NCBI RefSeq assembly: GCF_014218805.1 | Contig: NZ_JACJUV010000001.1 | Location: 310,001 to 374,000, forward strand | Length of the DNA stretch: 64,000 bases | Direction of reading: 5' to 3' | Origin: Teredinibacter franksiae | Lineage (GTDB): Bacteria > Pseudomonadota > Gammaproteobacteria > Pseudomonadales > Cellvibrionaceae | Shown: one piece after another, positions 2,353-27,806 of the stretch | Position numbering within the stretch: position 1 is the stretch's first letter | How the letters are laid out: each line of letters begins with the position of its first letter | The notes under the pieces: model-generated | Told to the model about the DNA's origin: nothing | The model's database searches: none | The model's input: only the letters and a program-made list of their open reading frames with translations | Program-made: the position numbers and the translations under genes

Positions 2353-3434
2353 TCTTTTGACTCTCCAATCGTGCTATCACTCTGCTCTGTTACAGGCTCC
2401 TGCTTAAGCGGCGCCGAACGATAATCTGAACGCCTTTTCTTTTGAAATTTTGTCACAGCCGCTTCATGCTCTTTCAACGTTGACGAAAACTGATGGGTTC
2501 CATCGCCCTTTGCAACGAAATACAACGTATTGCCCGATGCCGGGTGAAGTGCGGCATGAATGGCTTCTCGGCCTGGCATTGCTATAGGGGTTGGCGGCAG
2601 CCCATGATTCGTATACGTGTTATACGGGGTTGGTGTTTTTAAATCGCGCTTCCGTATATTACCTTTGTAGCTATCACCCATACCATAAATTACGGTCGGG
2701 TCAGTCTGTAGCCGCATACCTTTCTGTAAGCGACGAACAAAGACACCGGCGATCTGTTTACGCTCGAACGCTGCCCCCGTTTCCTTTTCGACAATGGACG
2801 CCATAATTAGCGCTTCATAAGCACTTTTATAGGGTAAACCCTCGGCTTTATTTATCCATTCCTGATGCAGGACTTCGTTCATCCTTAAATACGCCCGCAA
2901 TAATATGCCTTGGTCACTGTCACCGCGAATAAAGCGATAGGTATCGGGGAAAAAATAGCCCTCTGGGTGCTTGATCGTCAAACCAAGCTCCGCCAGAATT
3001 TCATCGTATGTTTTATTTTCTAGGGTACGCTGTATTTTTGAATGGCGATGCAGCGTATTTAAAAACTCTTTTAGCGTTCTTCCTTCTACTAGTGTTATCT
3101 GATGCTGTAGCTGTTCACCTTTTTGAAAACGCGCCAGCAATGACACGGGTGATTCCTTTTGAGCCAGCCGATACTCACCCGCCTTAATGTTCGATAGATT
3201 TAAAACACGAGCATAACCCACCCACACTCTAGGCCAGCGAACCAAACCGTGGGAATTTAATTCCTGCGCTACAGAATGAAGTGACGAGCCGCGCTCTATC
3301 ACATAGACGCTGTCAGGCAACTTTACCGGTTGCGGAGTATTCAACCAACTCCATATATAATAGCCGGAGGCCGCCGTCATCAGCAGGACCCACACAGCTA
3401 TAGCTGTTACAACCCGTAACGGATTTACATTCAT
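2349..3434 (-). CDS. mltG: Endolytic murein transglycosylase MltG (YceG)
   Basis: An inner-membrane lytic transglycosylase that cleaves nascent glycan strands and is thought to end their polymerisation. It has 361 residues: one N-terminal membrane helix (residues about 8-28), a LysM-like subdomain (VYVIERGSSLHSVAQEL), and the YceG catalytic domain with IVEKETG containing the catalytic Glu, then QTDPTVIYG and TPYNTYTNHGLPPTPIAMPG. The length is normal for the family. It sits between pabC and tmk in the usual order and overlaps tmk by four bases. Confidence 0.95.
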   Translation of the reverse strand: MNVNPLRVVTAIAVWVLLMTAASGYYIWSWLNTPQPVKLPDSVYVIERGSSLHSVAQELNSHGLVRWPRVWVGYARVLNLSNIKAGEYRLAQKESPVSLLARFQKGEQLQHQITLVEGRTLKEFLNTLHRHSKIQRTLENKTYDEILAELGLTIKHPEGYFFPDTYRFIRGDSDQGILLRAYLRMNEVLHQEWINKAEGLPYKSAYEALIMASIVEKETGAAFERKQIAGVFVRRLQKGMRLQTDPTVIYGMGDSYKGNIRKRDLKTPTPYNTYTNHGLPPTPIAMPGREAIHAALHPASGNTLYFVAKGDGTHQFSSTLKEHEAAVTKFQKKRRSDYRSAPLKQEPVTEQSDSTIGESKE

Positions 3435-3457
3435 CGGTTTAATACCAGGCTAAAATT

Positions 3458-4306
3458 TTATCGAAGATTTGTCGCCAACAACTGGGCGAATGTTTTCGCA
3501 ACAACGTGATCATCTATATCTCGCCCATTAAAACAGTTTACTGGGACTATGCCACGTACGGCATTGGTTAAAAATATTTCATCGGCTGCAAGTAAATCCT
3601 TTAGCTTATATCGGCCAACATCAACTGGGCCGACAGAAACCAGACTAGAGTTTTCCAGTAAATACTGCCGCATAACACCCTTTACACCTGCGGTCTTTAA
3701 ACAGGGAGTATATAAACGCTGACGCTTCCGCCAAAAAATATTATGGTGTGGTGTATCGATAACGCAGTCGGTTTCATCACACAACAACAGCTCTTCATGC
3801 GGTAAAAGCGCATCGTGCTTTGTGGCGGTCAAATAGTCCACTCGACTCAGCATCTTTACAGCAGCATGCTCCGCTTTCGAAAATAGCATTCCGCTCGCGG
3901 GCCTAAGTGATACAGGCTGTTGCTGCCAATTTTGAAGCTCACATGGGCTGAGCGTACAAAGCACATCAACAGCCGTGTTTAATGGATAGCTGGCGCGCTC
4001 ACTTTCACGGCGATAAATAATTATTTTTAAAATGCCATCAAAGCCTGTTTCGCTATTCAGTTGATCGACTAAACTCTCAACCGCAGACAAAACAACCTTT
4101 GTATCAAGCGCAAAATTTAAAAAATCGGCTCCACATTTTAATCGCTTGAGGTGGCCTAACATCAGAGGTAATTTTGAAGCCGAAACTCGGACAGTTTCAA
4201 AAATACCGTCACCATACATAAAACCGCGATTATTAACGGAAATGCTGGTTTCGCTGGCCAACTGGCCATTTAAAGAAACGAATGTACGTATGTTCCCGGC
4301 TGCCAT
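3458..4306 (-). CDS. pabC: Aminodeoxychorismate lyase
   Basis: A PLP enzyme of fold type IV that converts 4-amino-4-deoxychorismate to p-aminobenzoate and pyruvate for folate synthesis. It has 282 residues. Family landmarks are GFMYGDGIFETVRV (30-43), the probable PLP lysine K151 in AAVKMLSRVDYL, and the phosphate-binding AGVKGVMRQYLL. The usual RG-GGRGY segment is replaced by RRESERASYP, so the active-site loop is somewhat divergent. It sits between fabF and mltG as in many gammaproteobacteria. Confidence 0.9.
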   Translation of the reverse strand: MAAGNIRTFVSLNGQLASETSISVNNRGFMYGDGIFETVRVSASKLPLMLGHLKRLKCGADFLNFALDTKVVLSAVESLVDQLNSETGFDGILKIIIYRRESERASYPLNTAVDVLCTLSPCELQNWQQQPVSLRPASGMLFSKAEHAAVKMLSRVDYLTATKHDALLPHEELLLCDETDCVIDTPHHNIFWRKRQRLYTPCLKTAGVKGVMRQYLLENSSLVSVGPVDVGRYKLKDLLAADEIFLTNAVRGIVPVNCFNGRDIDDHVVAKTFAQLLATNLR

Positions 4307-4321
4307 TACTCTGAATGCAAA

Positions 4322-5554
4322 CTACACTTTCGAAAACAGAAGTGTTCCATTAGTACCACCAAAGCCGAAGGAATTACTAATGGCCTTATCAATTTTCATT
4401 TCTTGCGCCGTATGAGGTACGAAATTTAGATCGCAGCCTTCATCCGGGTCATCTAGGTTGATAGTGGGTGGAGCAACCTGATCGCGAATAGATAACACGG
4501 AAAATATCGCCTCTACAGCTCCCGCGGCCCCGAGCAAATGACCAATCATCGACTTAGTAGAACTTACCGCCAACTGATGTGCGTGATCACCAAATACAGA
4601 CTTCACCGCACCCGCTTCTGCGGCGTCGCCTGCGGGAGTTGAAGTTCCGTGGGCGTTGATATAGTCCACCGCACTTGCATTGATTTTTGCATCCAGTAAC
4701 GCATTGCGCATTGACAATGCTGCGCCATCACCACTAGGAGACGTTATATGAAAAGCATCTCCGCTAGTACCAAAGCCCGACAATTCCGCATAAATTTTTG
4801 CGCCGCGTTTTTTTGCATGTTCGTATTCTTCTAGCACCATAATACCTGCGCCGTCACCCAAGACAAATCCATCTCTACCTTTATCCCAGGGGCGGCTTGC
4901 GGCTTCGGGGTCATCGTTGCGCTTAGACAAAGCGCGTGCCGCACCAAAGCCACCAATACCAACGGATGTTGTCGCCATTTCTGAACCACCGGCAACCATG
5001 GCATCGGCGGTACCATACATAATTTCCCGAGCCGCAAGGCCAATACTGTGGGTTCCCGTTGTACAGGCCGTAGTGACAGCAAGGTTAATACCTTTAAAAC
5101 CGTAGCGAATGGAGAGATTCCCTGCGATCATATTAATAATCGCACCGGGCACAAAAAATGGCGATACACGGCGTGGGCCGCGTTCTTTTATGGTTATGGC
5201 AGTGTCTTCAATAGACCCCAGCCCACCAATACCAGAACCAATCACACAGCCGATACGAGCTGCATTTTCGTCGGTTATGACAAGGCCAGAATCCTCTACA
5301 GCCTGAACGCCCGCGGCCATGCCATACTGAATGAACAAATCCAGTTTTCGAGCTTCTTTTTCCTTCAGATACGGCGAAATATCCAAGTTTTGAACTGACG
5401 CGCTAATTTTTGTCGAAAAAGCAGAAATATCAAAAGACGTGATAGGTCGGATACCGCTTTTGCCTGCAAGAATGGACTGCCATGTCTGATCTACGCTGTG
5501 ACCAACGGCGGTCACCATACCAAGACCCGTTACTACAACTCTTCTTCGACTCAC
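4322..5554 (-). CDS. fabF: Beta-ketoacyl-ACP synthase II
   Basis: Condenses malonyl-ACP with long acyl-ACP in fatty-acid elongation. It has 410 residues with the KAS I/II triad C164 (TTACTTG), H302 ([11 protein letters not shown]) and H339 ([12 protein letters not shown]), and the C-terminal GFGGTNG motif. The start is GTG with a GGAG ribosome site 11 bases upstream. It lies 147 bp downstream of acpP, and the hairpin at 5641-5668 may cut transcription between the two so that acpP is made in excess. Confidence 0.96.
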
Positions 5555-18590: not shown

Positions 18591-18611
18591 TAATTAACAA
18601 GTACTCTATGT

Positions 18612-18637
18612 AAAGGGGCCGATTGGCCCCTTTTTTT
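18612..18637 (+). terminator. rne intrinsic terminator
   Basis: The stem AAGGGGCC/GGCCCCTT with a 4-base loop is followed by seven T. It lies 22 bases after the rne stop. Confidence 0.9.
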
Positions 18638-18820
18638 ATGCTTTGCTATTTCTGATTACCCTCCTCGGTTGGCGGCTACCGCGCACTTGTCCGCTTTTGC
18701 AATAAGGCTTTAACGCTTTAATGGTACTCACTGAAGCATGCAGCCTACGGCAGCTCCATTGGCTTTTTGGCTAATTGATCGAGTTAGGAGACCCTAATAG
18801 GTCATTTACAAACTGAACAA

Positions 18821-18856
18821 AAAAGGCCTGCCCCATTGGGGGGCAAGCCTTTTTTG
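18821..18856 (-). terminator. Stranded tRNA-Ser terminator at the left island edge
   Basis: A hairpin of GGCTTGCCCC/GGGGCAGGCC type is followed on the minus strand by six T. It stands next to the tRNA-Ser 3'-end copy exactly as the terminator at 27752-27783 stands next to the complete tRNA gene. I infer that this is the original chromosomal terminator of the tRNA, displaced by insertion of the island. Confidence 0.75.
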
Positions 18857-18858
18857 TG

Positions 18859-18880
18859 TTTGGCGGTGGGCTAGGGATTC
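18859..18880 (-). repeat. Left attachment-like repeat (tRNA-Ser 3' end copy)
   Basis: These 22 bases are identical to 27785-27806. Twenty of them are the 3' terminal part of tRNA-Ser(UGA): the CCA end, the discriminator base, the 3' acceptor strand and part of the T arm. The match ends inside the T arm. It is the expected footprint of site-specific integration into a tRNA gene. Confidence 0.85.
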
Positions 18881-19157
18881 ATGAATTACCTATAAATTAT
18901 TGATATTATTAATAATAAATAAATATAAAATTGTATATACCCCCATTTATACCCCCTACATTAACGGACTATTTACCGCCAACATCTTGCCCGCGAGCCC
19001 AGTATGGACTGGAGACACAAAACAAATTAATCTTTGTGATTGCGATGCCTACATTTACACATAAAAGGATAGATATTCCCCCTTTTCTCGTTGTGTGATT
19101 TAAAGCCTGACCCCATTGACCCCATGGTTCATGCAGAGTCTGAATGTGGACATTTTT

Positions 19158-19190
19158 TCTTATATGTAGACATAATGTCTACATATAAGA
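19158..19190. promoter_or_regulatory. 33-bp perfect palindrome, likely operator
   Basis: Two arms TCTTATATGTAGACAT and ATGTCTACATATAAGA, 16 bases each and fully complementary, are separated by one A. It ends 55 bases before the start of the membrane-protein gene at 19246. TATAAG at its right end could serve as a -10 box. Its length, perfection and position suit an operator bound by a dimer, for example an autoregulating antitoxin. Confidence 0.75.
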
Positions 19191-19245
19191 TGACGCATAT
19201 TCAAATGCTGGAGCACCACGTCAGAATTAGGATGTAGAAATAAGA

Positions 19246-20124
19246 ATGGAAATAGCGTTGGAAGAGCTTCCTTGGTATAAACGGTGGTCATATAAAATTG
19301 CTGGCGCCAGCCTTGTGCCAACTATTGTTAGCGCCATAGGCTTTGCTTACATAGGTATACCGGAAAGCTTGCAGATAACTGTTAGGCGGTGGCTTCCAGA
19401 AACTGCTAGAGAGCACCTACTTCTTCTATGTACCACAGGTACTTGGCTAATTGTAGTTCTCGTTATAAGTGTTGTTTGTTTGATTTGGGGCGGCCTTGGA
19501 AGTCATGTGACTTTGACCCTAGTGGAACGCAAGTGCAGAGAAGTTTATGATTCTTATGTGTCTTTAAGGCAAGAAAGTGAAAGTAAATCAATCAATTGTT
19601 ATAGGCTTTTTAGTAACTGGTTGTATTCATATAGTAACCATCTTGGTCTGACAGTAGATGAAAGGGTAAGCCTCTACAAGCTGGACATGGATTTATTTTC
19701 TTGTATTGGTAGATATTCAGAGAATGAACTGTTTAATAGCAAGCCCAATCGTCTTTATCCAAGGGAGCAAGGCGGTATATCTCGTGCCTGGGAAATGGGC
19801 AAATTTCAAGATACGGAAGCGCCAGACCCAGTGGATGATATGCAAGCTTGGGTTGACTACAATGTTAATAAATACTCGTTCACGGAAGAGGCGCTGTCAA
19901 ACATAAGAATGAAGAGTCGGGCCTTTTATGGGGTTCGGCTAAAAAACTCTCGAAATGAAACTATAGCAGTGATTCTTTTCGAGTCGTTGAAACCAAATGG
20001 CCTGCCATTTGGAAAACTTGCGCGTCTATTAAATGAACAGGAAAAGACGAATTTAACAACACTTATTGAATCTTTGGATGAGCATATACCAACTCTAAAA
20101 TCAGCCAGAGAGGAGGGGTTTTAA
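19246..20124 (+). CDS. Two-helix membrane protein with GAF-like C-terminal domain
   Basis: A 292-residue protein of unknown function. Two hydrophobic helices are visible, about residues 18-38 (IAGASLVPTIVSAIGFAYIG) and 58-86 (LLLLCTTGTWLIVVLVISVV), then a charged soluble part. Residues about 150-275 look GAF-like, with GISRAWEMGK and FYGVRLKNSRNETIAVILFES in the positions of the GAF core strands; this is a resemblance by eye. Its TAA overlaps the ATG of the Panacea gene by one base, so the two form an operon. By guilt of association it may be the toxic or effector partner of a Panacea-type pair, acting at the inner membrane. Base composition is clearly more AT-rich than the core genes. Confidence 0.7.
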   Translation: MEIALEELPWYKRWSYKIAGASLVPTIVSAIGFAYIGIPESLQITVRRWLPETAREHLLLLCTTGTWLIVVLVISVVCLIWGGLGSHVTLTLVERKCREVYDSYVSLRQESESKSINCYRLFSNWLYSYSNHLGLTVDERVSLYKLDMDLFSCIGRYSENELFNSKPNRLYPREQGGISRAWEMGKFQDTEAPDPVDDMQAWVDYNVNKYSFTEEALSNIRMKSRAFYGVRLKNSRNETIAVILFESLKPNGLPFGKLARLLNEQEKTNLTTLIESLDEHIPTLKSAREEGF

Positions 20125-20633
20125 TGAAAACTGTTATATCAAATATCATCAAGTATTTATTAAAAGAGTATCCACATAAATCTGAACTTTCAGCTTCACG
20201 GCTAACCAAAATGATTTACCTCATGGATTGGAAAAGCTCAATTGATTCTGGCCATCAGATAACTAATGCTCAGTGGCACTTCGATCACTATGGCCCTTAT
20301 GTCGAAGATTTTGTGAAATTGGCGAAAGAAGATAAGGATATATCCGTTGAGAATACATCAAATTACTATGGCGGAAAAAAACAACTATTTAAGCTTAAAA
20401 AGAAATTTGAGGGAAGCTTTGACTTAACTAAAGAGCAAAAAGATATCGCTAACTTTGTTATCGATGCCACTAAGAAAAAAAACTACGAAGATTTTATTCA
20501 ACTTGTTTATTCAACTTACCCCGTGATATCAAATGATCGATATAGCCATTTAGATTTAGTTGGCTCCGCTGAAAAATATAAGGAATTACTGGCCAACAAC
20601 TCTACTAAAGCATTGTACCGGACAAGCCAATGA
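20124..20633 (+). CDS. Panacea-domain (DUF4065/SocA-like) protein, likely antitoxin
   Basis: A 169-residue protein with the hallmarks of the Panacea domain: the N-terminal helix with LTKMIYLMDW, then QWHFDHYGPYVEDF near residues 50-64, and a C-terminal helical part with LVYSTYPV. Panacea proteins are antitoxins that pair with many unrelated toxins, and relatives (SocA, GepA) act as protease adaptors. It has a strong SD (AGGAGGGG) and a TAATG overlap with the membrane-protein gene, giving it good expression. The palindrome upstream of the operon may be its target or that of a complex. Function is inferred from family and context. Confidence 0.82.
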   Translation: MKTVISNIIKYLLKEYPHKSELSASRLTKMIYLMDWKSSIDSGHQITNAQWHFDHYGPYVEDFVKLAKEDKDISVENTSNYYGGKKQLFKLKKKFEGSFDLTKEQKDIANFVIDATKKKNYEDFIQLVYSTYPVISNDRYSHLDLVGSAEKYKELLANNSTKALYRTSQ

Positions 20634-20977
20634 ATTATTAAGTCCCATAGTAGCAGAAAAAAATCTTAATGAAATTCAAGAAGGCGTTCAAGTAGCAATA
20701 GACGAGACTAATCTAAATTATATTAATGGAGCAATCAACCTTAGTTGGGGCACCAAAATTATGCATACTGGCCTTATTCAAAACAATCAGTTTTATATTG
20801 CAGTCACGGCTTCAGATGCAGATAAATCTGGATTGAAAGGTGGTATTAAAGTTGTTGGTGCTGCATTGGTGGTGAAGGTTCATCTGAAACTAACGCTAGT
20901 AGAGTGTAAGCCGTATTCAGTTTTCTATCCCTGAAATACCGCCATCATCAATGGCTAAAATACCTTTACCTAAATAA
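20634..20977 (+). pseudogene. Frameshifted fragment, Trypco2-like
   Basis: Directly after the Panacea gene an open frame without a start encodes NELLSPIVAEKNLNEIQEGV... and ends in SDADKSGLKGGIKVVGAA. One base off, it continues as GGEGSSETNASRV, and a third frame gives QFSIPEIPPSSMAKIPLPK and a stop. Joined, the three parts read like one small protein, similar in pattern to the trypsin-co-occurring domain 2 family. At least two frame changes and no start codon mark it as decayed. Family assignment is tentative. Confidence 0.45.
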
Positions 20978-21124
20978 GCGCCTCACAAAAGTGATGCCCT
21001 TTCACCCCAAAGGAATCCATCACACCCTTAGACCGTTCAGTGCAAAAAAAGTTACGCCCCTCTCCAGTGATGACTTAAACACAATCTGCTTATCCTTCGC
21101 AGGTTACGTAACCAGGTTGTTGGC

Positions 21125-21156
21125 CCACATCGCCACATCGCCACATCGCCACATCG
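21125..21156. repeat. Four tandem copies of an 8-bp unit
   Basis: CCACATCG occurs four times head to tail, followed by a partial fifth copy. It lies in a non-coding stretch downstream of the immunity remnant. No spacers are present, so this is a simple repeat and not a CRISPR array. Confidence 0.9.
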
Positions 21157-21202
21157 CCATCATATTCAACTCCAGGCGCAGCCGGGTCATCCCCTCCCAA
21201 GC

Positions 21203-21529
21203 TTAAACAATTAAATACTTGATACTCTTCAGACCCAACCTTGACCGGTAAAACTCACCACACCCTGCAGTTGAATCTTCAACTGCCCTGAAAGCTTTGG
21301 GAGAAAGGATTAAGGTACCTCCAACCCACTGACAGATCTCAGGAATATCCACACACCTGTCGCCTGAATCATCATAAAGATTGGTGATGATGGGTTGCCA
21401 CCAGTCGGCCATGGATGTATTCAACTCAGAAAACCAGATGACATCATCTATCGAGACGCCATCAGGCGAGTAGCGCGCTGTGTCCATCACATCCACTTCC
21501 AGCTCACGAAAACACGGCTGCGTTGAGCG
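21203..21529 (-). pseudogene. Imm11-like (DUF1629) immunity protein, C-terminal remnant
   Basis: About 108 codons are open from a stop at 21530-21532; a GTG at 21496 would give 97 residues. The segment VDIPEICQWVGGTLILSPKAF with a following GEFYRS matches the DUF1629/Imm11 pattern, in which such proteins protect against polymorphic toxins. Family members are nearly twice as long, so the N-terminus is lost. It lies 20 bp downstream of the AHH-type toxin tip on the same strand, the usual order of toxin and immunity genes. Confidence 0.55.
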
Positions 21530-21549
21530 TCATATTGCGTAGACTTTAC

Positions 21550-21921
21550 TTACAGCCTCATCCCCCTCATCTTTGTAAATACGGGTTTAGGTTCATGCTG
21601 TTGTAGCAACCGCCCAATCGCTTGAAGCTGGGTTTTAATAACGTCCTGATTGGGGAGCGTACCGATACGAGCAGCCACAAGCTTTTCGTATTCACGGGTA
21701 TGGTTCTTCAGGTGCCATCTTGAGCTAGGCATTAAGTGGTGAGGCGTGTAATCATCTTTGTGCACCAAGTAGACTCCGTTTGCAGGGTCGTTGATTATTA
21801 TGCCGTGAGAATGTATGTGGATACGGGTATTACGGACCATGTTCTTTTCCCACCGACCTCTACCAAGACAAATGTGGTGCGCCGTGTGCTTAGAGCTCTG
21901 CTTAGGAGCTCCCTCAGCGTG
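21550..21921 (-). pseudogene. AHH-family nuclease toxin tip, detached C-terminal domain
   Basis: An open stretch of 123 codons after a TAA at 21922-21924. It carries TAHHI, the motif for which the AHH predicted nuclease family is named, then IINDPANGVYL and HHLMPSSRWHLKNHTREY with further histidines. The first ATG (21840) lies after the AHH motif, so any protein started there would lack it. AHH domains are normally the C-terminal tips of large secreted polymorphic toxins. Here the tip stands alone without delivery domains, so I call it a displaced remnant. Confidence 0.6.
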
Positions 21922-22010
21922 TTAGTGTGGGTGCCCCAAGTAAGTAAGTGGTCCGCGCGCCCACTTAGTGATTACGTGGAACAAAATGCTGTATATTTAA
22001 GCAGTTCTTC

Positions 22011-22038
22011 TTGACCTTCAAGGTCAATAATGTATTAT
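22011..22038 (+). promoter_or_regulatory. Methylase promoter with overlapping palindrome
   Basis: TTGACC (22011-22016) and TATTAT (22033-22038) are spaced by 16 bases, a good sigma-70 promoter. The palindrome TTGACCTT-C-AAGGTCAA (22011-22027) covers the -35. M.EcoRII and M.SsoII relatives repress their own genes through an N-terminal helix-turn-helix; this palindrome would suit such control. The binding is inferred. Confidence 0.65.
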
Positions 22039-22052
22039 TTCTGGGAATAAAA

Positions 22053-22085
22053 ATGGAAATAATTCCCCCCAAGGTTCCCGTATGA
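22053..22085 (+). CDS. Ten-codon leader ORF overlapping the methylase start
   Basis: ATG at 22053 opens MEIIPPKVPV and ends with TGA at 22083, overlapping the methylase ATG as ATGA. GGGA lies seven bases before it. The short, proline-rich peptide and stop-start overlap could couple or tune translation of the methylase. Expression is unproven. Confidence 0.35.
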   Translation: MEIIPPKVPV

Positions 22086-23338
22086 ATAATGTACAAAAGC
22101 TGGAAAAACTACATGGCTTGATTGGTGAGGATCAGCTTACAGAGTTATTAGACATTACAAATAAGACATTCAAAAACTGGCTGAAGGAAGAAAGCATCCC
22201 TAAAGAAAGTACGGTTTCGGCCAAGTTTGATCAAATATTGGCCAGCATAGTAAACCCAGTAATATTACCTGCTTCTGATTTTACCTTCATTGACCTATTT
22301 GCCGGTATTGGCGGAATTCGTCGTGGATTTGAGTCAATTGGTGGTCAATGTGTATTTACTTCGGAATGGGATAAGTATTCTCAGAAGACTTATCGCACTA
22401 ATTATCCTGATCATCATCCTGTAGTGGGGGATATCACCAAAGTCGATACAGCGCTAATCCCCGATCATGACGTGCTTCTGGCTGGTTTTCCATGTCAGCC
22501 TTTTTCTCTTGCTGGTGTATCCAAGAAAAACTCTTTGGGTCGTGCCCATGGTTTCGATTGCAGTACCCAAGGTACTCTTTTCTTTGATGTAGAGCGAATT
22601 ATTGAAGCAAAGCATCCTAAAGCATTTTTACTGGAAAATGTTAAGAACCTTATGAGTCACGACAAAGGAAAGACGTTCAAGGTAATCACTCATTCTCTTC
22701 AAGAGAAGCTTGGGTATAAGATTTTTTACAGGGTAATTGACGCAAACGGATTTGTTCCGCAAAACCGTCAGCGTATATTTATAGTTGGGTTTCGTGATGA
22801 TGTTTCGTTTGATTGGGGTGAATTCAGGCATCCGGGCAAGGGGACGGTAACAATGAAGGATATTTTGCACCCGGAAGATGGGAAAGAAAAATTTGAAAAC
22901 CCTTTTACAGAAGGGAAAAGAGCAACTGTATCAAAAAACTTTATAATCACCACAAAGCTATGGAAATATCTAAAAAATTATAAGAAAAAGCATGAAGAGA
23001 AGGGGAATGGCTTTGGCTTTGGCATTGTGACTGGGGATGATACTTGCCGAACTTTGTCAGCTCGTTATCACAAAGATGGCTCTGAGGTTCTGATTTACAG
23101 GGGGAAAGGGAAAAACCCAAGACGATTAACCCCGCGAGAATGCGCTAGATTAATGGGTTATCCTGATTCGCTAAAAATTGGAGTGTCGAACACCCAGGCT
23201 TACCGCCAGTTTGGAAATTCTGTTGTTGTTCCGGTTGTTAATGAAATTGCACGTATTATGCAACCTCATATTCTGGACCTCGTTGAGCGTGATCGTGAAG
23301 TTATACCGGATCGACAAGACTTGTGGAAAATAGCCTAA
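22082..23338 (+). CDS. EcoRII-type DNA (cytosine-5) methyltransferase
   Basis: Predicted to methylate the inner cytosine of CCWGG, protecting against the partner nuclease. It has 418 residues. Motifs: I IDLFAGIGGIR (70-80), IV with the catalytic C138 in FPCQPFS, VI LENVKNL, VIII PQNRQRIFIVGF, and X QFGNSVVVPV. The stretch LAGVSKKNSLGRAHGF and GNGFGFG are shared with M.EcoRII/Dcm and argue for the same target. The N-terminal 60 residues include a helix-turn-helix-like part (LTELLDITNKTFKNWL) that may repress its own promoter. It is shorter than M.EcoRII (477) at the N-terminus and in the variable region. Confidence 0.93.
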   Translation: MNNVQKLEKLHGLIGEDQLTELLDITNKTFKNWLKEESIPKESTVSAKFDQILASIVNPVILPASDFTFIDLFAGIGGIRRGFESIGGQCVFTSEWDKYSQKTYRTNYPDHHPVVGDITKVDTALIPDHDVLLAGFPCQPFSLAGVSKKNSLGRAHGFDCSTQGTLFFDVERIIEAKHPKAFLLENVKNLMSHDKGKTFKVITHSLQEKLGYKIFYRVIDANGFVPQNRQRIFIVGFRDDVSFDWGEFRHPGKGTVTMKDILHPEDGKEKFENPFTEGKRATVSKNFIITTKLWKYLKNYKKKHEEKGNGFGFGIVTGDDTCRTLSARYHKDGSEVLIYRGKGKNPRRLTPRECARLMGYPDSLKIGVSNTQAYRQFGNSVVVPVVNEIARIMQPHILDLVERDREVIPDRQDLWKIA

Positions 23339-23511
23339 AGCAGGAACGGCTTAGTAAAAAAACAACTTCTATCAATGGGAATGATGCGAATCTTGAAATG
23401 ATCGGTAGAGCGGAATTTTTGAAAGTGGCTCCAGAGTGATTATATTGAGGGAGCACTATGTAATAAGTAATTGATGTGACCGAAAATCACTTTTGGGGGG
23501 GGATGGGTAGC

Positions 23512-24708
23512 ATGGAGTTTAAAGACTGGGTATTTGATATTGCTAACGACGACTGGATTATTTACATAAAACGACTTTCCGCAAATGACACGGGCGCAAC
23601 CAAAAGCCATCAGGTAGGTATTTACTTTCCAAATTCAGTGCTGGGCACAGTATTTCCGACAATAAATCGCATTGATGTAAAAAATCCAGATGTTAATTTC
23701 AGAGCGGTAGTTGATTCAGACGATGTTCCAGAACAAAGCCTTCGCGCAGTTTACTATAATGGTAAGGTTCTAAAGCAATCGACAAGAAATGAAAAAAGAA
23801 TTACACGCTGGAGCACTGGAGTAGATTACACCCCGCTTCAGGATAAAGAAAAAACTGGGGCTATTGCAGTTTTTGCTTTTAATAACAGTGCAGGCGATTC
23901 TGAATACATGAGGTCTTGGGTTTGCCGAAACATAGAAGAAGAAAACTATTTGGAGGAACGTGTTGGTGAGGTGGACCCGAAAAGTTCGTATTTTGAGCGT
24001 GGAGATATAATTTTTGGAGGTGTACTTCCTGCCGGTTCGCTCAAAGTTGAAAAATATCCGCCCGAGTGGAACGATGCATTTCCCTCTGGTTCAGAAATCA
24101 TCAACCACCTCTTCGCACAAGGTTTTCATGCTGAATTGGGTGTGGATTCTCGAATCTTGAAAAGGCGTGATCACGAATTTGATTTGTTCAAGCTTGTCGA
24201 GCACCACCACTCCTTTCCTTTGATAAAAAAGGGATTCGAAAATGTGGAAGGATTTATAAAATTAGCAAATTCTATTTCTAACAGGCGAAAATCACGATCA
24301 GGCAAATCTCTTGAATTACATCTTGAAAACATATTCAAAGAAGAGGGCCTTGATGACTTCGGTGTTCAGTGTACAACAGAAGGAAATAAAAAACCTGATT
24401 TTTTATTTCCTGACTGCGCTTCTTATCATGATCCCGAATACCCTGAAAATAAGCTACGTATGCTTGCGGTAAAAACAACAGTAAAAGATCGATGGCGACA
24501 AATTTTGAATGAAGCAAATCGTATTGATTTCTCCTACCTTTTTACCTTACAGCAAGGTGTTTCTGAAAATCAGTTCAAGGAAATGCAGGAAGAAAAGGTG
24601 AAATTGGTTGTTCCCAAGCCGTTGCACAAAGCTTTTCCTAAGGGGATACGTGGTGACATATATTCGCTTTCAGGGTTTATTGAAGAAACAAAAACTTTGT
24701 ATTTGTAA
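23512..24708 (+). CDS. EcoRII-type restriction endonuclease
   Basis: A type IIE enzyme predicted to cut at CCWGG when two sites are bound. The 398-residue length matches EcoRII (404). The effector domain has YIKRLSANDTGATKSHQVG near the start, as in EcoRII; the catalytic part has NRRKSRSGKSLELHLEN, then EGNKKPDFLFP and LAVKTTVKDRWR, which supply the PD-(D/E)XK residues. I chose ATG 23512 because homology starts there; a GTG at 23476 and an ATG at 23503 are in frame, with a run of eight G between. It lies 173 bp downstream of the methylase in the same direction. No Vsr gene accompanies the pair. Confidence 0.94.
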   Translation: MEFKDWVFDIANDDWIIYIKRLSANDTGATKSHQVGIYFPNSVLGTVFPTINRIDVKNPDVNFRAVVDSDDVPEQSLRAVYYNGKVLKQSTRNEKRITRWSTGVDYTPLQDKEKTGAIAVFAFNNSAGDSEYMRSWVCRNIEEENYLEERVGEVDPKSSYFERGDIIFGGVLPAGSLKVEKYPPEWNDAFPSGSEIINHLFAQGFHAELGVDSRILKRRDHEFDLFKLVEHHHSFPLIKKGFENVEGFIKLANSISNRRKSRSGKSLELHLENIFKEEGLDDFGVQCTTEGNKKPDFLFPDCASYHDPEYPENKLRMLAVKTTVKDRWRQILNEANRIDFSYLFTLQQGVSENQFKEMQEEKVKLVVPKPLHKAFPKGIRGDIYSLSGFIEETKTLYL

Positions 24709-24804
24709 GTAAGGGCTGGAGTCAGGCCTGAATGGTACTTACTTAAGGCAACAAGTTCAGTAAACATGGGACTTTCAAGCCAATAAGGCAAAAACGCAAT
24801 ATAG

Positions 24805-24882
24805 GACACCCACACTAACACTTGAACCCAACAAAAAATCACTGCACATTATCCCAGTATCCAGAAACTCAAGGAATGAGCC
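24805..24882 (+). repeat. Transposase leader repeat, copy A
   Basis: This 78-base leader begins GACACCCACAC and ends CAAGGAATGAGCC directly before the transposase ATG. It recurs in diverged form at 27160 and 27279. The shared start suggests the left end of the mobile unit. Confidence 0.75.
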
Positions 24883-25850
24883 ATGCCCCGCCCAAGGAAG
24901 CAACAAATCTCCCTAGATGCTACCCCCTACTACCACTCGGCTTTGGCATCCTGCGTCGCTCTGCGTCCTGCAGTCGTGTACCTCTCGCTGTGTACGCAGA
25001 GCCTTTCTCTGTGGACTGGATTCGTTAACGGGCAAGGATTACGAGCATCGTCGGCAATGGGTTGAAGACCGTATTCTATTTTTGGGTGAGATTTTCTGCA
25101 TTGACGTGTGTGCCTACGCCGTAATGAGTAACCACCACCATGTGGTGCTACACATCAATATGGCTGATGCCCAAAGCCTGACGGACCTAGAAGTATGCGA
25201 ACGCTGGCACAAGCTTTACAAGGGCACCCTCTTAACTCAGAAATTTTTAAAGGGTGAGCTACTCGACGAAGCCCAATGGCTTGCCGTTAAAGAAAAACTG
25301 GACCACTGGCGCCTTGAGCTGGCCAATATCAGCCGCTGGATGTGGGCCTTAAACGAACCCATTGCCCGTATGGCCAACGCCGAAGACCAATGTACAGGAC
25401 GCTTCTGGACAGGTTTTTGCTCCTGCAAAACCTGCATTTCCAACATCCATGTTGGTCAGCGCCGGTTTAAATCACAAGCGTTGCTCGATGAAAAAGCCTT
25501 AGCCGCCTGTATGGCCTATGTGGATTTGAACCCCATTCGAGCCAGAATGGCCAAGACACCAGAAAGCTCTGACCACACCTCAATAAAACGCCGTATTGAA
25601 AACCAAGAGACTAATAACCCACAACCGTTAAAGCTCGCCGAATTTGTGGGTAACCCAAGAGAACCCATGCCCCAAGGCCTACCCTTTCATCTACAAGATT
25701 ACGTGCAGCTTGTGGATATTACCGGAAGGGCTATTCGTGAAGACAAGCGTGGCTTTATCGACAATAACTTGCCTTCCATTCTTGAGCGCCTCAATATCTC
25801 CAGCCGTGAATGGCGTGTACTGACCACCCAGTTTGAATCTAAATTCAAAA
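24883..25850 (+). pseudogene. HUH (Y1/REP-associated type) transposase, disrupted
   Basis: The gene starts MPRPRKQQISLDATPYYH, then shifts frame at a 40-bp insertion (24937-24976), and resumes as CTSRCVRRAFLCGLDS. Removing the 40 bases restores the family sequence, and copy C at 27279 shows the uninterrupted order. Later motifs are present: HUH-like SNHHHVVLH near 25127-25153 and the tyrosine region AYVDLNPIRARM. The 3' end stops resembling the family after FESKFKSLAG near 25850 and runs into unrelated sequence. Both defects make it inactive. Start assigned by SD AAGGAATGAG and by the repeats. Confidence 0.85.
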
Positions 25851-26049
25851 GCTTGGCTGGGAGTATGGAAACGACGAAGAGTTTCCTGCCTGGGAGTTCG
25901 CTGATTTTGGTGAGCGTAATGTTGCGGAATCGAATCCTCCGAGACCTTATGATTTGATGAAAGAAAAGATAGATTCGCCGGAGGGACGTGACATATACGG
26001 TGGTAAAATGGGTGCTGTAGAGCCGACATCAAGCATAACATTGGATTAA
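25843..26049 (+). pseudogene. Orphan C-terminal coding fragment
   Basis: A 68-codon open stretch without a start overlaps the broken end of the transposase in another frame. It encodes a protein-like tail including GNDEEFPAWEFADFGERN and PPRPYDLMKEKIDSPEGRD, ending at 26049, about 100 bases before a terminator. The composition looks like genuine protein. I do not recognise the family. It seems to be the end of a gene whose front was replaced by the transposase insertion. Confidence 0.4.
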
Positions 26050-26150
26050 AGTGGCTGAGCCTACGAGGCTTAGAAAAGGTCACGGGTTAATGGTTGCTAT
26101 TCACAATGGTACATAATATGGTAAAGATTCAAAAATACCGCGAATATGAG

Positions 26151-26168
26151 CCCCTGCAGGGGTTTTTT
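26151..26168 (+). terminator. Intrinsic terminator
   Basis: CCCCTGCAGGGG forms a compact palindromic stem followed by six T. It lies downstream of the orphan fragment and upstream of the PEP-CTERM gene. Confidence 0.7.
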
Positions 26169-26338
26169 GTCGTTTTTTAATGTTAGGGCATTGCTTTTCC
26201 ATTATGGATAAATAAATGTTCCTCGATTAGTGAAAATTAAACAGTAAAGGCTAGTTGAGTTTATTCGGCCTGATAAGTGAGTAATTCGACAGCCTCGTTA
26301 TGCACAAAATTTGTTAAACAGAGAGAAGGGTTAAAACA

Positions 26339-26950
26339 ATGAAATACTTTATATGCACATTGTTCGCTATTGTGTTCGCAAGTAGTTCGGTTCACGCCAT
26401 TATTTTGGATTTTGATGAACCGTTGGTCGGCTTCCAAACTAGCTATGGTGATGGTGATGCATTTTCAGAGGACGGTTTTTCATTAACAAACCATTCAGAT
26501 AAGTATGGGTCATTTATCCGTTTCAACCCAAATAATCAAAACGCAATTGTTCCAAACAATGGGACAACGCATGTGGGAATAACGCTTGGTGGTGGTCCGA
26601 TTTTAACACGCGATAACGGTGGCGTATTTTCATTTGTTTCGTTAGATATTGCTGAATATAGTGAACATGTAATGTTCATAGATACATTTAATTTGGCTGG
26701 GTATCAAGCAGATGGTGGAGTACTTTTGGCTGAACTATCAATTGATAAAATATTAGACGATGCCGGTGGGCATGATGATTTTCAAAGTTATCTATTAAAC
26801 TGGAAAAACTTAACAAGCGTGGAATTTTTGTCTAGTGGTGTAGCTTTTGACAATGTAATTGTTAATACTGTTACGGAGCCATCAACCGTGTATTTGCTAT
26901 TATTTTCAATGGTAGCAGTACTCATTTGGCGTAAGAAAAACATTGCTTGA
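26339..26950 (+). CDS. PEP-CTERM sorting-domain exported protein
   Basis: A 203-residue protein with an N-terminal signal peptide (ends near VHA at 18-20), a Gly/Asp/Asn-rich extracellular part, and a C-terminal PEP-CTERM element: TEPSTVYLLLF, a hydrophobic helix and a short basic end RKKN. PEP-CTERM tails are cut by exosortase EpsH, and such proteins are linked to exopolysaccharide and biofilm. No exosortase or polysaccharide gene is in the window, so its partner must lie elsewhere if it works. The domain pattern of the mature part (DFDEP..., GGGPILTRDNGG) recalls other small PEP-CTERM proteins. It has its own upstream region of about 170 bases after the terminator. Confidence 0.85.
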   Translation: MKYFICTLFAIVFASSSVHAIILDFDEPLVGFQTSYGDGDAFSEDGFSLTNHSDKYGSFIRFNPNNQNAIVPNNGTTHVGITLGGGPILTRDNGGVFSFVSLDIAEYSEHVMFIDTFNLAGYQADGGVLLAELSIDKILDDAGGHDDFQSYLLNWKNLTSVEFLSSGVAFDNVIVNTVTEPSTVYLLLFSMVAVLIWRKKNIA

Positions 26951-27090
26951 ATAAACCCTAATTATGCATAAATATGGCTAACTTAGGCACGCGAAATACT
27001 TATCCATATCATTTTTCAGTGTGTCATTTGAGTTCATGCTCAGCACTAACTGGCCATTTGGACGAATCAATCTTCCCGCGTAACTCAACA

Positions 27091-27138
27091 ACCACCAGCT
27101 AAAGCTGGTGGGTTAGCATTACGGGCTGAAAGTCCGGA
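27091..27138. repeat. Paired hairpins, IS200/IS605- or REP-like end
   Basis: CCACCAGCT-AA-AGCTGGTGG gives a 9-bp perfect stem, followed after about 10 bases by a smaller imperfect stem (CGGGCT/AGTCCG). Such short hairpins are recognised by HUH transposases at IS200/IS605 ends or as REP sequences. It stands 46 bp left of transposase leader copy B, which supports an origin in the same element family. Confidence 0.5.
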
Positions 27139-27159
27139 TACGGGTCAACGAACTCTCGA

Positions 27160-27269
27160 GACACCCACACCTACACTTGAACCCAACAAAAAAATACTGT
27201 GCATTACACCAGCAAATAGCAACTCAAGGAATGAGCCATGCCCCGCCCAAGGAAGCAACAAATCTCCCC
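27160..27269 (+). repeat. Transposase leader repeat, copy B
   Basis: The leader and the first ten or so codons of the transposase (ATG at 27238, MPRPRKQQIS) are nearly identical to copy A. The copy is cut off at about 27269 and followed within ten bases by copy C. Confidence 0.8.
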
Positions 27270-27278
27270 ATTTTTTCA

Positions 27279-27470
27279 GACACCCACACCAACACTTGCA
27301 CCCAACAAAATATCACTGTGCATTAACACAGACATCAGCTTCTGAAGGAATGAGACATGCTGCGCCCAGAGCAGCAACAAACCTCCCTATGAAGCCACGC
27401 CCTACTTACATTATACCTCTCGCTGCGTACGCCGAGCATTCCTGTGTGGGTTTGATGCACAAACCCAAAA
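27279..27470 (+). repeat. Transposase leader and 5' gene fragment, copy C
   Basis: The leader is repeated again, then a diverged gene start (ATG 27357). A one-base shift near 27390 breaks the frame. Beyond it TPYLHYTSRCVRRAFLCGFD can be read without the 40-bp insertion of copy A. Similarity ends soon after. The remaining stretch to 27748 holds nothing I can identify. Confidence 0.75.
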
Positions 27471-27751
27471 CGGCCCAGTACCTTCAGCTAACTATTGTGA
27501 CGCGCTGAGTAAAACTGTTGGTTTTTTAAGCTACAACAGCAAACCTATGCGCCCATTCTGTAGTCACCAGGAATAAAAAGGCTTAGAGATCCCTCACCAG
27601 ACACAATTCAACACTCATGAGCTCAGGGGCAAAACTAGTGTTTTTACGTAGCCAGATAGGCAGAAGGTAGGCGTTACGGGCCATGCAGCGCTACAGAGCG
27701 TGCGCATAAAGGTAGTGGCTTCAATGATCAGACTTTCACGAGAGCAATAAA

Positions 27752-27783
27752 AAAGGCCCGTCCATAGGGACGAGCCTTTTTCT
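27752..27783 (-). terminator. tRNA-Ser terminator
   Basis: The stem AGGCTCGTCC/GGACGGGCCT on the minus strand is followed by a run of T. It sits just after the tRNA 3' end, inside the island side of the attachment repeat, so the present tRNA ends on a terminator supplied by the island. Confidence 0.85.
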
Positions 27784-27784
27784 A

Positions 27785-27806
27785 TTTGGCGGTGGGCTAG
27801 GGATTC
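27785..27806 (-). repeat. Right attachment-like repeat (3' end of tRNA-Ser)
   Basis: Identical over 22 bases to 18859-18880. Bases 27787-27806 belong to the intact tRNA-Ser gene. Confidence 0.85.

Follow-up and report, generated by a model that had tools for sequence, protein, structure and literature searches.

A toxFtsL-D9:PanA-type toxin-antitoxin operon of Teredinibacter franksiae that looks like an immobilized integron cassette

We analyzed a two-gene operon within a 64,000-nucleotide stretch of the Teredinibacter franksiae genome (the whole of this stretch is referred to below as the window). The first gene, ORF1 (positions 19246 to 20124, plus strand), encodes a candidate toxin with two membrane helices, a long helix, and a GAF fold. 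The second gene, ORF2 (20124 to 20633, plus strand), encodes a Panacea antitoxin (PanA), as recognized from PF13274 and from a comparison of its tail. We consider it probable (at about 0.7) that ORF1 and ORF2 form a type II toxin-antitoxin module of the toxFtsL-D9:PanA kind, one that entered this genome as a cassette of an integron. This explanation is based on features read from the DNA: homology, the order of the genes, their architecture, and apparent vestiges of recombination sites at either end of the operon.

Results

ORF1 encodes a membrane protein with a GAF fold

The ORF1 product is 292 amino acids long. Hydropathy analysis revealed two hydrophobic segments, and the structural model (mean pLDDT of 89.3) comprises short helices, one long helix spanning residues 64 to 114, and a mixed domain from residue 118 onward. 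In this confident predicted structure, the C-terminal part of the protein has a GAF fold, and the top solved structures retrieved by Foldseek from the PDB were GAF proteins (PDE2A, 1mc0; E = 1.4e-5). The first-pass annotation of this DNA had described the protein as a two-helix membrane protein with a GAF-like domain, and the hydropathy, the model, and the Foldseek matches bear this out, with a Pfam match being absent. No Pfam family matched ORF1 at E ≤ 1, NCBIfam returned a chance-level match only, and none of the PDB sequences matched the ORF1 profile at E ≤ 1.

Searches with ORF1 yielded 96 homologues. Two separated hydrophobic segments were found in 51 of these using a simple hydropathy rule, which merges or misses some. 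The Pfam GAF family was reached, weakly, by 1 of 29 relatives (E = 0.0023). Models of the FtsL type also matched relatives weakly (2/29 at E = 0.078 and 2/32 at E = 0.0093), and a DivIC model matched 3 of 29 (E = 0.0021); ORF1 itself was matched by neither. No relative of ORF1 was confirmed among viral contigs and phages.

ORF1 is homologous to a described Panacea-neutralized toxin

The most distant ORF1 homologue (P0096) was used to derive a family of 128 proteins, which, among the matches listed (120 of 128), are mostly from Bacteroidota where named. This family includes P0149, a 281-amino-acid protein from Gelidibacter mesophilus. BLASTP aligned ORF1 and P0149 at 33% identity over 134 amino acids (E = 1e-18); identity over the whole length is 21%. 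When the profiles of the ORF1 and P0149 families were compared, 241 columns aligned with a probability of 99.7% (E = 2.6e-25). The order of structural elements in the P0149 model is the same as in that of ORF1, at a lower confidence (pLDDT of 81.1).

A toxin of 281 amino acids from G. mesophilus, toxFtsL-D9, was published in 2023; it is reported to combine membrane helices with a GAF domain and a helical region resembling FtsL (PMC10440598). According to the same paper, a stand-alone Panacea antitoxin neutralizes toxFtsL-D9. Expression of the toxin in Escherichia coli abolished colony formation and led to filamentation and delocalization of FtsZ, effects which the authors state are not caused by depolarization (PMC10440598). 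P0149 is almost certainly toxFtsL-D9, the two having been equated by organism and protein length only. The first-pass annotation did not know a membrane/GAF protein as a Panacea partner. That view has to be dropped, since ORF1 is homologous to just such a toxin and, with toxFtsL-D9 already in print, the membrane/GAF combination is a described partner (PMC10440598). Judged by sequence, ORF1 and ORF2 are a gammaproteobacterial member of the known toxin-antitoxin kind toxFtsL-D9:PanA.

Eleven residues are invariant across both families (R140, S142, Y144, R156, G176, I178, W182, M222, S224, E246, and S247 of ORF1). All of them lie in the GAF part of the protein, which suggests that the GAF pocket, or its contact with the Panacea protein, matters.

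A Panacea gene follows ORF1 relatives at all clear loci

ORF2 encodes a protein of 169 amino acids and, as noted previously, has a single base in common with ORF1, which ends where ORF2 begins (20124). The earlier assignment to the Panacea family also was correct: PF13274 matched with 47.8 bits against a cutoff of 25.7, and ORF2 is the sole PF13274 match of the genome at E ≤ 0.001. A family profile search of ORF2 found no DNA-binding domain match besides Panacea. No model of PADLOC 2.0.0 matched either ORF at E ≤ 1, and hence no catalogued antiphage defense system was matched.

A clear relative of ORF1 was present at seven distinct loci, which we compared: the window, a Microbulbifer locus (L006), a Vibrio harveyi plasmid (L007), and loci in genomes G107 (L012), G055 (L013), G495 (L072), and G768 (L073). 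The loci came from searches of 58, 369, and 390 genomes (overlapping sets, with 3, 3, and 6 matching genomes, respectively), from one scan of genome contigs, and from a plasmid collection. L010 and L070 were merged with L006 into one locus (L010 and L006 are evidently from one genome), as were L011 and L071 with L013. At all seven loci, a Panacea gene lies directly downstream on the same strand; by the ORF calls used, it shares 1 to 47 bases with the gene before it. The relative in G768 was recognized by a profile match (E = 6.7e-16) and gave no BLASTP match. A weak partial match in G570 (L074; 62 residues, one stop, E = 1e-4) was left out of the count; no Panacea gene was seen in the stretch examined there. 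No ORF1 match was present in seven other genomes of the same genus.

Contig sizes gave a second view of this association. For 35 of the 96 toxin clusters, the longest contig is exactly equal in size to that of one of the 120 listed antitoxin clusters (of 246), compared with 0 to 4 toxin clusters after the sizes were shifted by 1 to 7. The condition that would have refuted the first-pass proposal, ORF1 homologues lying mostly apart from Panacea genes, was not borne out at the seven loci. Together with the homology to toxFtsL-D9, the neighborhood at 7/7 loci argues, at the level of sequence, for the Panacea-paired, membrane-located toxin-antitoxin module proposed at the outset.

The same toxin-Panacea pair is carried by the V. 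harveyi conjugative plasmid (NZ_CP154269.1), which was the only match in the plasmid collection. Its neighbors there include a HEPN gene, a recombinase, and further toxin-antitoxin genes.

The end of ORF2 resembles a decayed attC site

In the Microbulbifer locus, a short attC site starts at the antitoxin stop codon (4668 to 4713, 38.4 bits). In G055, the antitoxin frame enters an attC-like sequence and stops within it, and this sequence was not reported by our attC covariance model (R1, built from ten sites). From position 20602, the window shares 28 of 33 bases with the Microbulbifer attC and 26 of 33 with the G055 sequence, diverging at the expected GCGTTA end. We therefore regard 20602 to 20646 (plus strand) as a putative short attC that has decayed and lost its GCGTTA end. 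The last ten or so residues of ORF2 would then be encoded by the attC remnant.

The remnant was recognized only through the comparison with Microbulbifer. Model R1 missed it, its best nearby score being 11.3 bits at a terminator hairpin (18813 to 18863), and scanning the surroundings of the operon for attC motifs yielded no usable candidate. The remnant also is essentially unfolded (-2.4 kcal/mol, z of -0.5, versus -9.8 and z of -2.4 for the Microbulbifer site), and no attC array follows it.

An attC-like tail (a match of at least 6/9) ends 43 of the 120 listed antitoxin homologues, where 0.065 would be expected by shuffling, and none of the 96 toxin homologues. It was found in only 8 of 35 contig-linked antitoxins, and at the plasmid and G107 loci no attC was seen by eye at the antitoxin end. 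Many members of the family therefore are not, or are no longer, cassettes of this attC type. Elsewhere in the T. franksiae genome, no attC of the Microbulbifer type was found with up to three mismatches; as the type occurs at this place only, the module probably came from another lineage. Taken as a whole, the operon looks like an integron cassette that is now immobile.

The operon lies behind a diverged copy of an attI-like element

Alignment of dispersed copies identified an attI-like element at 19143 to 19207 (plus strand) of the window. It is a diverged copy, with G^CTG for G^TTA at the core, and ends in CATATTCAAATG at the presumed cassette boundary, 19207^19208. Three other places in the genome (C1:2411332, C1:2537728, and C1:3073538) hold copies of a repeat of about 104 bp that are 96 to 98% identical to one another, and this sameness stops at ATATACAAATG^TTA. 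A pattern search of 76 other genomes returned no such element. At least 150 attC places were detected in the genome (150 of 2,979 candidates scored). The repeat is found at the 5' border of attC arrays at L032, L033, L034, and L050 (only 35 bases of it at L050), and in the 12 to 13 kb read at these loci the attC sites lie only downstream of it.

A single integron integrase of the genome scored above the family cutoff (382.3 bits, C1:1048752). The sequence beside it ends GATATACAAATG^TTAGC and is followed by the first cassette. A stretch of 123 to 124 bp from this sequence recurs, at 97.6 to 99.2% identity, at the heads of four more arrays (L075 to L078). On contig C8 there is a truncated integron integrase (L080, 2685 to 3074), adjoined by an attI-like end, GTGACGTATATTCAAATG^TTAGC, with attC sites further on; this apparently is a second, broken integron. 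The end of the window element, GATGACGCATATTCAAATG^CTGG, is close to the end beside the truncated integrase.

In total, attI-like ends were found at 10 of the 12 array borders examined. These ten heads fall into three types: A (L049 and L075 to L078), B (L032, L033, L034, and L050), and C (L080). No attI-like end was seen at the L079 border, and the match at that of L081 was weak (74% over 53 bp). The copies at L035, L036, and the window have no attC downstream, the single weak match at L035 being on the other side. In view of the copies that head arrays and the likeness to integrase-adjacent ends, the most fitting interpretation of the window element is that of an old copy of attI. The genome possibly contains a dispersed, multi-attI integron, and with ten attI-headed arrays among twelve borders, many cassettes could hold an expressed first position at once. 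Somewhat short of an even chance, in our estimate, is the fuller picture in which one integrase serves many dispersed attI copies and the window module is a fossil cassette, captured at a palindrome-bearing attI of this dispersed kind and then locked in place as its attC degenerated to become part of the antitoxin gene.

A perfect palindrome lies within the attI-like element

Inside this element is a perfect 33-bp palindrome (16+1+16, 19158 to 19190, no strand assigned), as the first-pass annotation had pointed out. Its arms of 16 exceed the best arms of 7 to 11 found at spacers of 0 to 2 in 20 Markov-generated windows, and no shuffle matched the pattern. The core of the palindrome recurs in the same genome at C1:2167399 and, with one mismatch, at C8:309077, and related versions lie at the three places given above for the 104-bp repeat. 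It did not occur within 300 bases upstream of the ORF1 relative at any of the four loci inspected (L006, L007, L012, and L013). The core was not found in viral contigs. A consensus scan placed a sigma-70-like promoter match (TGGACA-18-CATAAT, 10/12) at 19147 to 19176 on the plus strand, overlapping the palindrome. The region contains 4 sigma-70-like matches against a mean of 8.0 in shuffles, so this match is not above chance and is weak evidence for a promoter.

RAYT-like (REP-associated transposase) genes lie near three palindrome copies: in the window (24917 to 25957), at L004 (2631 to 3254), and at L005 (2846 to 3823). The window gene matches NF047646 below the cutoff, and those at L004 and L005 are similar by eye only. 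This proximity led us to consider that the palindrome might be of REP/RAYT origin; given how few copies there are, and that most of them head attC arrays, we did not adopt this idea. At L004, a 194-amino-acid gene (3372 to 3956, minus strand) starts about 44 bases behind another palindrome copy. We take its product to resemble a nuclease of the NucS/DUF91 type.

The module is part of a 9.2-kb insert

The module is held in a 9.2-kb insert (18591 to 27786) between rne and tRNA-Ser(tga). The distance between these two genes is 9,197 bp in the window and 122 to 1,099 bp in the five same-genus genomes in which both were found (G004 had the tRNA and no rne; G002 had neither in the stretch examined). 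The operon had been described as standing alone in an island. It does lie within an insert, but an EcoRII-type restriction-modification pair and an AHH nuclease gene share that insert with it. The former consists of a Dcm-type cytosine methylase followed by an EcoRII-type restriction endonuclease (22082 to 24708). The latter is a fragment (PF14412, 96 amino acids) beside an unmatched 97-amino-acid ORF on the minus strand (21203 to 21840); these two are perhaps a toxin tail and its immunity protein, the pairing being a guess. An open frame directly after the antitoxin gene (20640 to 20934) gave no family match and no DNA match in the plasmid collection and is perhaps a gene remnant. The second-longest inverted repeat of the window (13+5+13, 24381 to 24411) lies inside the EcoRII-type gene. 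A search of the window, L034, and L043 with Rfam at gathering thresholds recovered only the two tRNAs of the window.

Discussion

Proposed mechanism and alternatives

Extrapolating from the published relative, ORF1 would be anchored in the inner membrane by its two helices, with the GAF domain in the cytoplasm, and would pair through its long helix. Free ORF1 would disturb assembly of the division machinery, leading to filamentation and slow death. The Panacea protein presumably binds ORF1 directly and holds it inactive until some signal releases it; such a signal might be infection by a phage or a ligand binding to the GAF or the Panacea domain. The attI-like element may be where expression begins, as would be the case for a first cassette, and with the attC decayed the module would now be fixed. 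At a whole-length identity of only 21%, the division target is, in our analysis, borrowed from a distant relative. A different target is conceivable if ORF1 were a SLATT-like pore former, in which GAF senses a ligand of infection, the two helices open a pore, and Panacea is the brake. The PADLOC RTasSLATT models weakly match a few relatives (2/32 at E = 0.00076 and 1/32 at E = 0.0021), as does NCBIfam SLATT_5 (1/32 at E = 0.0019), and several other Panacea-held toxins depolarize membranes (PMC8832971). However, ORF1 itself has no SLATT-type match, and in the account of toxFtsL-D9 given above (PMC10440598) the division arrest does not proceed through depolarization. We consider a pore former quite improbable.

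The location of the palindrome bears on how the front end of the operon is to be read. The first-pass annotation had taken the palindrome for the module's own operator. This reading is not supported: the palindrome is absent at the four other loci examined, is also found ahead of other genes of the genome, and here sits to the attI side of the presumed boundary. As far as the sequence can tell, it seems to belong to the former capture site and not to the module. It could still be a real operator, at which a dimeric regulator (Panacea, the toxin-antitoxin complex, or a regulator encoded elsewhere) would bind and control the operon from the overlapping promoter. A perfect symmetry so far above chance would fit such a role, as would its overlap with the promoter match and its retention in the C1:2167399 copy, where both sides have changed. 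Against this, besides the missing upstream copies and the presence of the same element in front of other genes, stand the lack of a further DNA-binding domain in ORF2 and the argument, made in PMC10440598, that autoregulation by Panacea itself is improbable; we judge an operator unlikely. We hold to about the same degree of doubt the idea that the whole dispersed element is a shared promoter-operator repeat or a small mobile element instead of attI, and that the operon never was a cassette. Consistent with that idea, three copies (the window, L035, and L036) lack attC downstream, recombination at the copies is a prediction, and the window type resembles the integrase-adjacent type over a short stretch only. 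Nevertheless, the repeat borders four arrays on their 5' side with attC only downstream, the same core ends the integrase-adjacent sequence that recurs at four array heads, a core nearly identical to that of the window adjoins the intI remnant, and a relative carries attC at the end of its antitoxin gene. A former cassette behind an old attI copy is the reading we prefer.

Implications

The membrane-GAF/Panacea kind of toxin is now placed in marine gammaproteobacteria and traced to integron cassettes and a conjugative plasmid, a distribution that may explain its patchy spread. In the literature searched, which left most subscription journals outside, no paper places a toxFtsL-D9:PanA-type module on integron cassettes. 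From the attC-like tail of the antitoxins it would seem that a single sequence did double duty, in the mobility of the cassette and in the coding of the antitoxin. Scattered attI copies, if active, would change the view of the integron as one site of capture and expression, and a genome with one complete integrase and ten attI-headed arrays is perhaps more unusual than the toxin-antitoxin module itself.

Comparison with known systems

The closest described system is toxFtsL-D9:PanA. The toxins are of similar size (281 and 292 amino acids), both P0149 and ORF1 have two membrane helices and a long helix leading into a GAF domain, homology between them is significant in pairwise and profile comparisons, and in both systems a stand-alone Panacea antitoxin is encoded beside the toxin gene. 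Unlike P0149, with which it shares only 21% of its residues over the whole length, ORF1 has a longer stretch with extra helices between its two membrane helices; it also is gammaproteobacterial, and part of its family resides on integron cassettes. Other membrane-acting PanT toxins, from E. coli, Bartonella apis, and Helicobacter, likewise are membrane proteins under Panacea control, but they depolarize the membrane, and a GAF domain is nowhere mentioned in PMC8832971. The toxin-antitoxin and defense cassettes of chromosomal integrons, as reviewed in PMC12409362, resemble the operon as accessory modules at the first-cassette position and in having a 3' attC, which is present in the Microbulbifer relative. 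The window differs from them in its decayed attC, in having no array after it, and in the restriction genes of its insert.
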